Origin: Acidobacteriota bacterium
GTDB lineage: Bacteria > Acidobacteriota > Vicinamibacteria > Fen-336
Direction: 5' to 3'
Length of the DNA: 64,000 bases
Assembly: GCA_011526565.1 (NCBI GenBank)
Contig: WYBL01000082.1
Span: 1-64,000, forward strand
Below the pieces are notes generated by a model that was given only the letters and a program-made list of their open reading frames with translations, searched no databases and had not been told where the DNA came from. Position 1 is the first letter of the stretch, and the number at the start of each line of letters is the position of its first letter. Shown here piece by piece: positions 6,562-40,840 of the stretch. A program made the translations under genes and the position numbers.

Positions 6562-9045
6562 ATGAGCGACTACGATTTCGAGGCGATCGAGGCGCGCTGG
6601 CAGAAGCGCTGGCAGGACGAGGGCACGTTCGAGGTCCGCGAGGACGCGTCGCGGCCGAAGTTCTACTGCCTCGAGATGCTGCCGTACCCGTCCGGCGACA
6701 TCCACGTCGGCCACGTCCGCAACTACTGCATCACCGACGTGATCGCGCGGGTCAAGCGGATGCAGGGCTTCAACGTGCTGCACCCGATCGGCTGGGACGC
6801 GCTGGGACTGCCCGCCGAGAACGCGGCGATCAAGCGCGGCACCCACCCGGAGACCTGGACCCGCTCGAACATCGCGGGCATGAAGCGGCAGCTCATGCGG
6901 ATGGGCTTCAGCTACCCGTGGAGCCGCGAGATCGCCACCTGCGACGCGGACTACTACCACTGGAACCAGTGGACGTTCCTGCGCATGCTGGAGCGCGGCA
7001 TCGCCTACCGGCAGAAGGCCCCGGTCAACTGGTGCCCGTCGTGCCAGACCGTGCTCGCCAACGAGCAGGCCGAAGGCGGCACCTGCTGGCGTTGCAAGAG
7101 CGCGATCCAGGAACGCGAGATGGACCAGTGGTTCCTGCGCATCACCGCCTACCAGGACCAGCTCCTCGAGGACATGGACGGCCTGACCGAGTGGCCCGAC
7201 CGCGTGCTGGTCCAGCAGAAGAACTGGATCGGGCGCTCGCCGGGCGCCCACGTCGACTTCGCGGTGGACGGCGAGGCCGAGCCGATCCGGGTGTTCACGA
7301 CCCGGGTCGACACCATCTGCGGCGCGACGTTCCTGCTGCTGGCCCCGGAGCACCCCCGGGTCGACGGCCTGATGCGCGGCGCCGACGCCGGGGCCAAGGA
7401 GGTCGTGGCCCGCCTGCGCAAGCAGGACCGGCGCGCCCGGCTGGCGGGCCAGGTCGACAAGGAAGGGGCCTTCACGGGCCGCCATGCGGTGAACCCGTTC
7501 AACGGCGAGCGGGTACCGATCTGGGTCGGCAACTTCGTGCTGATGGGCTACGGCACGGGCGCGATCATGTCGGTGCCCGCCCACGACCAGCGCGACTTCG
7601 AGTTCGCGAGACAGTACGGGCTCGACGTGCGCGTCGTGATCCAGCCCGAGGGCGAGGCGCTGGACGGCGCGACCCTGGCCGAGGCGTACTCGGGGCCGGG
7701 GTGCCTGGTCAACAGCGGCGAGTGGAACGGCCTCGAGTGGGAGGTCGCCAAGGAGAAAATGGCGGCCCACGCCGAGGCGAAGGGCTTCGGCAAGGCCACC
7801 ATCACGTACCGGCTCAAGGACTGGCTGATCAGCCGCCAGCGCTACTGGGGCACGCCGATCCCGGTCGTCTACTGCGACCAGTGCGGCATGAAGGGCGTGC
7901 CGGACTCCGAACTGCCGATCACGCTGCCGCCCGACGCGCCGTTCACCGGCGAAGGCGGCAATCCGCTGGAGAAGGTCGAGTCGTTCGTCAAGGCCAAGTG
8001 CCCGTCGTGCGGAGGCCCCGCCCGCCGCGAGACGGACACGATGGACACCTTCGTCGACTCGTCCTGGTACTTCTACCGCTACTGCTCGCCGAAGCACGCG
8101 GACGGCCCGTTCGACCCGAAGGCCGTGGCCCACTGGTTCCCGATCGACCTCTACGTCGGCGGCATCGAGCACGCGATCCTGCACCTGATCTACTCGCGCT
8201 TCTGGACCAAGGTGCTGCGCGATCTGGGCCTCGTGAAGGACGCCGAGCCCGTGACGCGGCTGTTCCCGCAGGGCATGGTCCACTGGAAGGGCGAGGTGAT
8301 GTCCAAGTCGAAGGGCAACACGATCGCCCCCGACGACGTCAACGCCCGCTACGGCGCCGACACGCTGCGGCTGTACGTGCTCTTCGCGGCGCCGCCGGAG
8401 GACTCGCTGGAGTGGAGCGAGGAGGGCATCGAGGGCCCGCACCGCTTCCTGCTGCGGCTGGTCCGCCTGGTCGCGCGACACGGCGAAGCGTTCCGCGCGC
8501 TGGCGGGCCAGGCGATGCCGGCGGAGCTGCCGGCGGTCGCACGCGACCTGCGCCGTCGCACGCACCAGACGATCGCCAAGGTCACGGACGACGTCTCGAA
8601 GCGCCTGCAGCTCAACACCGCCGTCGCCGCCCTGATGAAGCTGTCGAACGAGATCCACGCCGCGGAGCCGGCGCTGCACGAGGACGCGGCGGGCCGCTTC
8701 GCGCTGCGCGAGGCCGTGGCCACGCTCGTCCAGCTCCTGAACCCGTTCGCGCCGCACGTCACGGAGGAGCTGTGGGAGCGGCTGCAGCCCGCGGGCACCG
8801 CTCCGCTGGTCGACACGCCGTGGCCCGTGGCCGACGCCGCGGTGGCCCGCGAAGAGACGGTCGAGCTGGCCGTGCAGGTCAACGGCAAGGTGCGCGGTCG
8901 CATCAGCGTCGCCGCCGGCACGCCGGAGGAGGCCATCCGTGCAGCGGCGCTCGCCGAGCCGCGGGTCGCGGAGCAGGTCGCGGGCAAGGCGGTGCAGAAG
9001 GTGGTGGTGGTGCCCGGGCGGCTGGTCAGCGTGGTGGTCAAGTGA
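6562..9045 (+). CDS. leuS: Leucyl-tRNA synthetase
   Basis: An 827-residue class I synthetase charging tRNA-Leu. The HIGH-type motif is in PSGDIHVGHVRNY (about residues 42-54) and the KMSKS-type motif in GEVMSKSKGN (about 577-586). A CP1 editing domain with the TTRVDTICG motif and two zinc-type CxxC pairs (VNWCPSCQTV, VVYCDQCGM) are present. The length is slightly below that of E. coli LeuRS. The ATG at 6562 gives the expected N-terminus MSDYDFEAIEARWQKRW. Its last four bases overlap the lptE start. Confidence 0.97.
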   Translation: MSDYDFEAIEARWQKRWQDEGTFEVREDASRPKFYCLEMLPYPSGDIHVGHVRNYCITDVIARVKRMQGFNVLHPIGWDALGLPAENAAIKRGTHPETWTRSNIAGMKRQLMRMGFSYPWSREIATCDADYYHWNQWTFLRMLERGIAYRQKAPVNWCPSCQTVLANEQAEGGTCWRCKSAIQEREMDQWFLRITAYQDQLLEDMDGLTEWPDRVLVQQKNWIGRSPGAHVDFAVDGEAEPIRVFTTRVDTICGATFLLLAPEHPRVDGLMRGADAGAKEVVARLRKQDRRARLAGQVDKEGAFTGRHAVNPFNGERVPIWVGNFVLMGYGTGAIMSVPAHDQRDFEFARQYGLDVRVVIQPEGEALDGATLAEAYSGPGCLVNSGEWNGLEWEVAKEKMAAHAEAKGFGKATITYRLKDWLISRQRYWGTPIPVVYCDQCGMKGVPDSELPITLPPDAPFTGEGGNPLEKVESFVKAKCPSCGGPARRETDTMDTFVDSSWYFYRYCSPKHADGPFDPKAVAHWFPIDLYVGGIEHAILHLIYSRFWTKVLRDLGLVKDAEPVTRLFPQGMVHWKGEVMSKSKGNTIAPDDVNARYGADTLRLYVLFAAPPEDSLEWSEEGIEGPHRFLLRLVRLVARHGEAFRALAGQAMPAELPAVARDLRRRTHQTIAKVTDDVSKRLQLNTAVAALMKLSNEIHAAEPALHEDAAGRFALREAVATLVQLLNPFAPHVTEELWERLQPAGTAPLVDTPWPVADAAVAREETVELAVQVNGKVRGRISVAAGTPEEAIRAAALAEPRVAEQVAGKAVQKVVVVPGRLVSVVVK

Positions 9046-37909: not shown

Positions 37910-38284
37910 TCAGCCGGCCGTGCGCGAGTGCCAGCGCTCGACCACCTCGAGCCAGCCCCGGAGTTCGGCGGCGGTCGGCGCCAGTTCGTAGGCGTGGTGA
38001 TGGCAGGCGCGCGAGAGGGCGTGCCACGTGCCCGACAGGGCCGTGGCGCTCTCGGGGTCGCTGCGCTCGTACTCGGCGAGGCAGATCCACTGCGCGCGAG
38101 CGCTGCACTCGTGGAGCGCCAGGCCGCGAGCGCGCCAGTACCGGTCGAGCGCCGCCTCGAGCGCCTGCCGGATCAGCAGCGCGCAGGCTCGGGGCCAGGT
38201 GCCTGCCAGGTCGCCCCGGCGCGGGCGCGCGAGCAGGTCGCGTGCGGTGTCGAGCAGGAATCGCACCTCGGACGCGCCGCTCAT
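37910..38284 (-). CDS. Small helical partner of the zinc-hook ATPase (HEPN-like)
   Basis: A 124-residue all-helical protein not recognised by name. It contains LIRQALEAALDRYWRARG, then CSARAQWICLAEYE, and SRACHHHAYELAPTAAELRG with three adjacent histidines. The ATPase upstream ends in a domain with the similar pieces CRQAIEAAAMQAVRARR, AAGSHEE and NDAHALARWL, so this protein may be a free-standing copy of that domain. The pattern (Arg near one helix, R-A-C-H-H-H near another) recalls HEPN ribonucleases. ATG 38284 overlaps the ATPase stop (ATGA), so the two are translated together. Confidence 0.6.
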   Translation of the reverse strand: MSGASEVRFLLDTARDLLARPRRGDLAGTWPRACALLIRQALEAALDRYWRARGLALHECSARAQWICLAEYERSDPESATALSGTWHALSRACHHHAYELAPTAAELRGWLEVVERWHSRTAG

Positions 38285-40818
38285 GCCGACCTCGCGAGCC
38301 AGCGAGCCAGCGCGTGCGCGTCGTTGACGTGGGCCATCAGGTCGCCGGCCACCTCCTCGTGGCTGCCCGCAGCGCACCACTGCCAGGCGTCTCCGAACGT
38401 CCGTCGCTCGCGGTTGAGCCGGTTCATCACGTCGCCGGCGCGCTGCTCGTCGTCGAACAGCGCCAGGGCGACCAGTTTCAGTCCGCTCGCCTTCTCGAGC
38501 ACGGCCTGCACGTCGTCGTGGCGGTCGCCGCGGCCGATGCGGCGCGCGCGCACAGCCTGCATGGCTGCGGCCTCGATCGCCTGGCGGCAGAGCCCGGGCA
38601 CGACGCGGCGAGCCGCGGCGGGCGGCAGCTCGTCGGTCAGCGCCAGTGCCCGGGCGTCCCCGATCGCGCGGTCGACGGGGTCGGCGTTCGGCTTGACCTC
38701 GACGACCGAACCCTCGGCGCGGGTCACGGCGAAGATCGCGGCGTCGAGGGCCAGGCGGCGCACCGACTCCGCGAGGCGGTCGTCGTGGGTGAAGACGATC
38801 ACCTGGCGCTCGCGGGCAGTTTCGGCCAGCACCCGAGCCAGGCCGTCGACGCGGGCCGGGTCCATCGACTGCACGGGGTCGTCGATGACCAGGAAGCGGA
38901 ACGGGCTCTCCGGCTGCGTCGCGCGCGGGAGGAACAGGCTCAGCGCGAGGGCGTGGATCTCGCCCTGGCTCATCACGCCGAGCGCCACCGAGTCGGCCCC
39001 GTCCACGGCGACCTTGAGCTCGACCCGGCGCTTGGTCGCCGTGCCTTCGAGCACTACGTCGCGCAGGTCGACGTTGCTCTGCAGCCGCAACTGTTCCCAG
39101 ATCGACCTGGCCCGCTGCCCGATCGGGGCGAAGCGTTCGGCGCGCAGGGCCTTGCCCTGCGCGCCGCGCCAGGCCGCGGCCGCCTCGATCGCGGGCAGCG
39201 CCGACGCCGACGCGCGCGCTCTCTCGGCGCCGGGGATCCACTCGAGGAGCCGCCGAGCCAGCGGGCGCCAGGCATCCTCCCGCTTCTGCAGCTCCTGGCG
39301 CGCTGCTCCCGCCAGCTCGTCCAGCGCCTCGCGCAGCGGCCCGGCCGCGGCGGCCAGCGCGTCGGCGCCGGCAGCCAGCTCCGCTCCCGGGGAGGCCGAG
39401 GTCGCGACGCCGCGGCGCCAGGCCTCGAGCGGCTCCAGCGCAGACTGGCAGGCCGCGACCGCGGCGAGCAGCGTCTCGACGTTCAGCCCGAGGCCGCCAG
39501 CCTCGGCGAGGGCCTGCACGGGCAGGTCGCGCAGCAGGCCGCCAGCGGCGGTCACGGAGCGCTCCCCCGCCTGCCGCGCGCTCGCGACGGAAGCAGCGGC
39601 CGAGCGCAGCTCGACGACCTCGGCGGTCCGCGCCTGGTGCCAGGCGCCGTCGATCGCGCCCGCGCGGCCGCACACCGGGCAGGGGCCGTCGCCGGTGGCA
39701 TCGTGGAAGCGCAGCGCCGAGTCGAGCAGGTCGGCGAGCTGCTGCGATCGCTCCGCGAGCGTCCCGGCTGCGGCTCCGAGCTGCCGCGCCGCGGCGCGCA
39801 GGCCGTCGACCACGGCCCCGACCGACTCCGCAGACGGCCCCTCCAGCGCGGCGAGCTGACGCAGCACCGCGAGGCCAGTGGCTTCGCGCGGGGTGGCCTC
39901 GGCGGTCAGCTTCGCCGACAGCTCGGCGAGCCCCCAGTCCGCTCCCGCCAGCAGCTCGCGGGCGCCGGTCGCGCGCAGGTCCGGGTGTGACGCCAGCTCC
40001 GCGAACAGGGCATCGCGGGCCACCCCGGCCTGCTTGAGCGCCTTCTCGCGCGCGAGGCGCTCCTCGGCGAGCACCTTCTGCGCGGCGGCCAGTTCGTCGA
40101 GGCCGAGGATCTGGGCGAGGCGGTCGTGCAGGTCGGTGGGCTGGTCGAACGTCGAGCCCAGTTCCGCGTAGGACAGGAATGGGCGCCAGGAGGAGAGCGC
40201 GGTCCCCCAGCCCAGCGCCGCGAACGGCTCGACGGCCTGTCCGCGGCGCTGGACCAGCGTCGTGGCGGCCTCGAGACGGCCGCCCTCCTCGAACTCGCGG
40301 CTCACCGTCAGGCCTGCGGGTTCGCCCTCCACCGCGAAGTCGGCCGCGATCCGGGCCGCCGGCTCGTGGAGGTTGCGCCAGGCCTCGCGCCACACGGCGC
40401 TGCGGTCCTTCCAGCGAAAGGTGTCGCCGGTCAGCAGCAGCTCCAGGGCTTCGGCGAAGCTCGACTTGCCGGAGCCGTTGCGCCCGACGACCAGCGTCAG
40501 TCCCGGACCGGGGTTGAGGTCGAGCCGCGTCTCGCGCCCCACGCCGCGGAAGCCCTGCACCCGGATCTGCCGAAGGAAGATCCCCGGCACGCGAGCGGGC
40601 TCCGGCAGCGGCGGCAGGGCTCTGCCGGCGGCGGCCGAAGGCGTGTCGAGCGCCCCGGCCAGCGCCTCGCGGCCCTCGAGCGCGGCGAGCACGAGGTAGT
40701 CCCAGCCCTCGGCTCTCGCGGCCTTCGGGCGGCCGCGCTTGAGCGGGGCGGGCGACGGGCCCTCCGCTCCTTCGGCGTCGAGCCTCTCGAGCACGATCCG
40801 CTGCAGCGCTGGGTCCAA
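38281..40818 (-). CDS. SMC/Rad50-type ATPase with zinc hook (RloC-like)
   Basis: An 845-residue protein. Walker A is VVGRNGSGKSS (about residues 110-120), a long helical region carries the hook motif CPVC (380-383) at its middle, and the second lobe has signature MSQGE (616-620), Walker B FLVIDDP (642-648) and H-loop FTHDD (676-680). A C-terminal helical domain (about 731-841) contains R-QAI-E and a late SHEE. RloC and PrrC are ATPases with anticodon-nuclease domains; the zinc hook points to the RloC type. TTG 40818 is chosen because GGAGG lies six bases upstream; ATG 40905 lacks a site. Confidence 0.8.
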   Translation of the reverse strand: MDPALQRIVLERLDAEGAEGPSPAPLKRGRPKAARAEGWDYLVLAALEGREALAGALDTPSAAAGRALPPLPEPARVPGIFLRQIRVQGFRGVGRETRLDLNPGPGLTLVVGRNGSGKSSFAEALELLLTGDTFRWKDRSAVWREAWRNLHEPAARIAADFAVEGEPAGLTVSREFEEGGRLEAATTLVQRRGQAVEPFAALGWGTALSSWRPFLSYAELGSTFDQPTDLHDRLAQILGLDELAAAQKVLAEERLAREKALKQAGVARDALFAELASHPDLRATGARELLAGADWGLAELSAKLTAEATPREATGLAVLRQLAALEGPSAESVGAVVDGLRAAARQLGAAAGTLAERSQQLADLLDSALRFHDATGDGPCPVCGRAGAIDGAWHQARTAEVVELRSAAASVASARQAGERSVTAAGGLLRDLPVQALAEAGGLGLNVETLLAAVAACQSALEPLEAWRRGVATSASPGAELAAGADALAAAAGPLREALDELAGAARQELQKREDAWRPLARRLLEWIPGAERARASASALPAIEAAAAWRGAQGKALRAERFAPIGQRARSIWEQLRLQSNVDLRDVVLEGTATKRRVELKVAVDGADSVALGVMSQGEIHALALSLFLPRATQPESPFRFLVIDDPVQSMDPARVDGLARVLAETARERQVIVFTHDDRLAESVRRLALDAAIFAVTRAEGSVVEVKPNADPVDRAIGDARALALTDELPPAAARRVVPGLCRQAIEAAAMQAVRARRIGRGDRHDDVQAVLEKASGLKLVALALFDDEQRAGDVMNRLNRERRTFGDAWQWCAAGSHEEVAGDLMAHVNDAHALARWLARSA

Positions 40819-40840
40819 ATTGGTCCTCCGGGAAGGTGTT

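Follow-up and report, generated by a model that had tools for sequence, protein, structure and literature searches.

The window, a stretch of 64,000 nucleotides from a bacterium of the Acidobacteriota, carries on its reverse strand two overlapping genes. The first (38281..40818, -) encodes an 845-residue ABC ATPase predicted to combine a Rad50/SMC-type head, a zinc hook and a HEPN-like C-terminus; it starts with TTG at 40818, 6 nt from an upstream ribosome-binding site, GGAGG, read from the sequence (40825..40829, -), and stops at 38281-38283. The second, hereafter the partner (37910..38284, -), encodes a 124-residue protein of predicted HEPN fold that runs from an ATG at 38284 to a stop at 37910-37912. 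The ATPase stop and the partner start share four nucleotides (ATGA), and both open reading frames, their lengths and the overlap are as the first-pass annotation of this DNA had given them. A genome of the same genus carries the pair too, with an ATPase of 97-99% identity and flanks identical in kind; this synteny rules out misassembly and means that the pair is no recent mobile island in the genus, whilst a chance overlap of reading frames is ruled out by conservation of the pair across two phyla. Near the ATPase N-terminus lies an AT-hook-like KRGRPK (40723-40740, -), in a stretch that is not kept in relatives.

Searching whole genomes with a profile of the partner placed it next to an ATPase at 60/60 loci in 45 actinobacterial genomes and at 19/19 loci in acidobacterial relatives, together 79/79 loci in 64 whole genomes from two phyla; the first-pass annotation had allowed that the two genes might not co-occur elsewhere, and this did not prove to be the case. 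Partner matches with no neighbouring ATPase numbered only 11 across the same whole genomes and were mostly fragments. At the loci with a readable ATPase end (95), an ORF of 100-200 aa starts no more than 30 nt from that end in 93, and the overlap is exactly 4 nt in 77. Between the two proteins, pairwise distances show a correlation of r=0.87, a value matched in 0 of 2000 permutations, none of which exceeded 0.19. The two genes form a genuine and nearly obligate unit, and their proteins co-diverge. The pair is also old and widespread. In named genomes 404 relatives were counted, of which 80 loci were kept, their sources being mostly Acidobacteriota and Actinomycetota. Its spread is patchy, with about 19 in 100 acidobacterial relatives carrying the pair, and in the ATPase tree Acidobacteriota are interleaved with Actinomycetota metagenome-assembled genomes, a pattern compatible with transfer though no proof of it. 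Plasmids carry a few copies. Cargo of phages or viruses is rejected: phages gave no match, viral contigs gave only short matches to the ATPase head, and neither collection contained a full-length copy.

The motifs first ascribed to the ATPase (Walker A, a CPVC hook, signature and Walker B) are all present and cannot be put down to chance, because 58 relatives keep them with little or no variation. Alignment with these relatives places Walker A, GRNGSGKSS, at residues 112-120 (40459..40485, -), where G112, R113, N114, G115, G117, K118, S119 and S120 are invariant; the ABC signature, GVMSQGE with its string VMSQGE, at residues 614-620 (38959..38979, -); Walker B and the D-loop, LVIDDPVQSMDP, at residues 643-654 (38857..38892, -), with VIDDPVQSMD as the Walker B string; and the switch histidine in FTHD at residues 676-679 (38782..38793, -), H678 being found in 58/58. 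Both cysteines of C380-P-V-C383 (39670..39681, -) are likewise present in 58/58 relatives, and in the predicted structure helices 354-375 and 391-407 flank the motif, consistent with a putative zinc hook between helical arms. The model (pLDDT 90.5) comprises a head, the arms and a helical C-terminal domain at residues 714-845, the last of which had also been anticipated. A structural search, whose matches are dominated by the head domain, aligned the head with Rad50 (4ncj) at Z 27.0 over 306 residues, so that on its predicted fold the ATPase is of Rad50/SMC-head type, closest to Rad50/SMC. At the level of sequence families, no SbcC, RecN or Rad50 model scored above its own cut-off (Rad50 models gave 16-32 bits against cut-offs of 454-1087), and the AAA_13 model, which covers PrrC and RloC, gave 22.4 bits, under its cut-off of 36. 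A housekeeping match for the pair, the outcome set against the proposal at the outset, did not appear, and an SbcC, RecN or Rad50 identity is ruled out by these sub-cut-off scores together with the patchy distribution.

The partner had been described as a helical, HEPN-like protein of 124 residues, and its predicted structure bears this out: the helical model (pLDDT 93.2) superposes on 2hsb with Z 14.6 and 1.9 A over 112 residues. HEPN proteins make up nearly all of its top 30 or so matches by structure, among them HEPN/MNT toxins, the sacsin HEPN domain, Csm6 and LsoA, with several HEPN/MNT proteins at Z 10-11; Foldseek returned the same families with weak E-values (best 0.075). No Pfam, NCBIfam or PADLOC model gave a real family for the partner, no Pfam HEPN model matched it and a search of its profile against PDB chain sequences returned nothing meaningful, so the assignment rests on predicted structure, by which the partner is a HEPN domain. 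HEPN folds mostly belong to RNases. The likeness to HEPN/MNT toxin-antitoxins lies in this fold; they differ in that the cognate gene here encodes an ABC ATPase rather than a nucleotidyltransferase, and in that the Rx4-6H motif is not conserved.

A further HEPN-likeness, which the first-pass annotation did not state, lies in the C-terminal domain of the ATPase itself (residues 714-845; 38284..38679, -). Its helices follow the same order as those of the partner in the predicted models, and hhalign related the two at P=0.002, as compared with 0.03-0.14 for control segments, placing R745 on R39 and E749 on E43. The domain is probably a second HEPN, its likeness to the partner being modest and its assignment weaker than the partner's own. 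Each domain carries a conserved triad. That of the partner is formed by R39-x3-E43 on its long second helix (38156..38170, -; R in 55/58 and E in 55/58) and by the first histidine of H95-H96-H97 (37994..38002, -; 58/58, 47/58 and 52/58), past the end of its fourth long helix, with an overall spacing of R-x3-E-x49-52-H; that of the ATPase, R745-x3-E749-x70-H820, is kept in 58, 57 and 54 of the 58 relatives at a spacing of R-x3-E-x69-73-H. In RloC the pattern is R-X3-E-X36-52-H, and anticodon cleavage depends on every one of its residues (PMC2610378); the partner's E-H spacing falls inside this range and that of the ATPase outside it. The arginine of the HEPN Rx4-6H motif is poorly kept, R92 of the partner occurring in only 29/58 relatives and the ATPase C-terminus lacking it, and one or both HEPN-like domains could for this reason be non-catalytic. 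Some HEPN families keep the histidine and lack the arginine (PMC3710099). As that arginine is not conserved, an RNase function is suggested by the fold and by the PrrC/RloC-like triad.

Were only one of the two domains active, the small subunit might be a toxin, or the inhibitor of one, docking on a pseudo-HEPN at the ATPase C-terminus in the manner of a toxin-antitoxin system. H95 of the partner is indeed held more strictly (58/58) than H820 of the ATPase (54/58), a few matches to the partner alone exist, and the pairing of a HEPN protein with a regulatory partner is common in HEPN/MNT systems (PMC4621449). Such an arrangement nevertheless seems rather unlikely, as R745 and E749 (58/58 and 57/58) are as conserved as R39 and E43 of the partner (both 55/58), which is unexpected for a mere dock.

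Gene neighbourhoods differ between the window and the wider family. A survey of neighbours for signs of defence, proposed with the original observation, came out differently in the two: in Actinomycetota the linkage to restriction-modification is strong, whereas the genes around the pair in the window are ordinary (a WYL regulator, a methyltransferase, a DinB protein, a HEAT-repeat protein and, from sequence, transporter-like ORFs), and no restriction gene was recognised near it there. An N6_Mtase gene lies within 10 kb of 32/60 actinobacterial ATPase loci as against 0.56 expected from a background of 124 matches in 351 Mb (45 genomes); these genomes are related, which inflates the P-value and makes it nominal, but leaves the effect size as it is. 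The methylase-linked loci usually hold type I restriction genes, and at typical actinobacterial loci the pair and two N6 methylase genes are divergently oriented, with HsdR near some. Pairs on two Streptomyces plasmids also lie near annotated methyltransferase genes, one of them with HsdR and HsdS. Other company includes GmrSD at Streptomyces loci and, elsewhere, DUF6119, UvrD-type helicases or an RNase H-like protein. One locus (L056, 4475-6376) and others like it share a conserved double N6 methylase arrangement, in which what reads as a fusion of helix-turn-helix and N6_Mtase parts, HsdS-like at one end, adjoins HsdM and is divergent from the pair; at the same locus (7067-7903) and in several Micromonosporaceae an RNase H-like protein stands directly upstream of the ATPase. 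At L080 (970-2751) and six further loci, in Streptomyces and others, the pair has in its vicinity a recurring protein of about 590 aa with no Pfam match. In a Vicinamibacteria metagenome-assembled genome (L032, 11780-18189) and in Smaragdicoccus (L041, upstream on the opposite strand) the pair stands beside two large AddAB-like proteins of UvrD-helicase/PD-(D/E)XK type, a link that recurs in very distant genomes.

Some of these observations would suit a complex for DNA repair or end-processing of the SbcC/Rad50 kind, in which the helical partner would be a DNA- or protein-binding subunit and not a toxin. The ATPase head is closest to Rad50/SMC, the two distant loci above lie beside an AddAB-like helicase/nuclease pair, the PGAP label on plasmid copies is double-strand-break repair and the neighbours in the window are ordinary. 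We consider this quite improbable: at about 19 in 100 relatives the pair is far too rare for a housekeeping function, its partner has a fold that is mostly an RNase fold, N6_Mtase genes accompany it at 32/60 loci and the SbcC, RecN and Rad50 families all fall below cut-off.

Comparison with described systems places the pair closest to PrrC and RloC. As in RloC, an ABC ATPase is interrupted by a coiled coil bearing a CxxC hook and ends in a domain of HEPN type with R-x3-E...H; RloC, though, is one protein, whereas the present system has two genes and an additional, separate HEPN subunit, its ATPase lies outside the AAA_13 cut-off, and the E-H spacing at the ATPase C-terminus is 69-73 as against 36-52. 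Alignment by hhalign with the C-termini of 12 RloC-like proteins from plasmids was not significant for either the partner (P 0.12) or the ATPase C-terminus (P 0.073), with the R-x3-E and HH patterns visible in both comparisons, and a scan of viral contigs for further RloC sequences found none. By the comparisons made, the pair is not RloC itself, given the sub-cut-off AAA_13 score, the spacing of the C-terminal triad and the split over two genes. The original idea of an RloC that had gained a subunit finds no support in the same AAA_13 score and the non-significant profile comparison; nor does the small protein look like a replacement, appearing instead to be a second HEPN, because the ATPase retains its own HEPN-like C-terminus with R-x3-E...H. 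PrrC with EcoPrrI likewise joins an ABC ATPase to a HEPN RNase domain, is linked to type I restriction and is likely a restriction guard, but is a single protein described as lacking a zinc hook, where two genes and a hook are present here; the corresponding restriction linkage is confined to some members, among them 32/60 actinobacterial loci, and is not seen in the window.

Resemblance to other two-gene systems is more distant. The ABC ATPase DndD/CxC with DndE offers a zinc-hook ATPase (in the CxC clade), a small, obligate, co-diverging partner and modification genes nearby, and from this matching layout (PMC10853773) the pair could be read as scanning DNA or assisting restriction alongside type I methylases, with a partner that aids DNA binding and does not cut RNA. 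That reading appears highly improbable, for DndE is said to consist of two ribbon-helix-helix domains (PMC10853773) and the partner here is modelled as an all-helical HEPN bundle, whilst no methylase lies near the locus in the window or near about half of those in Actinomycetota. A DndE-type partner as such, that is a DNA-binding ribbon-helix-helix protein, is ruled out by fold. PARIS (AriA/AriB) and Septu (PtuA/PtuB) share the two-gene logic of an ABC-type ATPase sensor and a small nuclease effector, but their effectors are TOPRIM or HNH proteins and matches of their ATPases to this one are weak and confined to the head. Lamassu LmuB and Mad3 share an SMC-like head and scored best among PADLOC models, reaching 1.7e-25 and 2.7e-25; on the window ATPase itself their best stretches cover only parts of the head and arms. 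PADLOC models were applied to the ATPase and the partner, and no LmuA, LmuC or MADS gene was recognised nearby. As far as compared, the pair is taken to be of one kind with PrrC and RloC but is itself neither of these, nor Rad50/SbcC, nor Lamassu or Septu.

Taken together, we favour, with a probability of roughly 0.55, a two-gene module for abortive defence, or guard, of PrrC/RloC-like kind, in which a Rad50-like ATPase would control a two-subunit HEPN RNase; a sensing ATPase that gates a HEPN RNase is proposed because PrrC and RloC set the precedent. We infer a heterodimer, its RNase activity, an RNA target, a trigger and a role in defence. In outline, an ATPase dimer, its coiled coils joined at the zinc hook, would sense DNA that is foreign or broken, or else the condition of a type I restriction system next to it, and nucleotide-driven movement of the heads would then license the RNase, which most likely would consist of the ATPase C-terminal HEPN-like domain and the separate HEPN subunit with one R-x3-E...H triad each. 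Cutting of tRNA or other RNA may then stop growth of the infected cell. Since HEPN enzymes usually act as dimers and the two genes encode one triad-bearing HEPN-like domain apiece, the simplest assembly would be a heterodimer. More tentatively, and with the odds somewhat against it, the pair may represent an undescribed immune family, spanning at least two phyla, in which the zinc-hook Rad50-like ATPase and the second gene each carry half of a HEPN RNase; this enzyme would occur solely as a heterodimer gated by the ATPase and would guard type I restriction systems.

PrrC and RloC are the textbook cases of DNA-sensing ATPases tied to an RNA-cutting domain, and how the ATPase turns the RNase on is unsettled; a naturally detachable HEPN subunit would allow the sensor and RNase parts to be tested separately. 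If defensive, the pair, with more than 400 relatives in one genome collection, would count as a common yet unrecorded system of soil Acidobacteriota and of Nocardia, Micromonospora and Streptomyces. The literature searched does not describe the pair, and a 2020 paper that reportedly classified the ABC ATPases of conflict systems may mention it.

At a few loci (L113, 14073-14707; G066:C17; G068) the ATPase copy is apparently decayed or split, with the partner still nearby.
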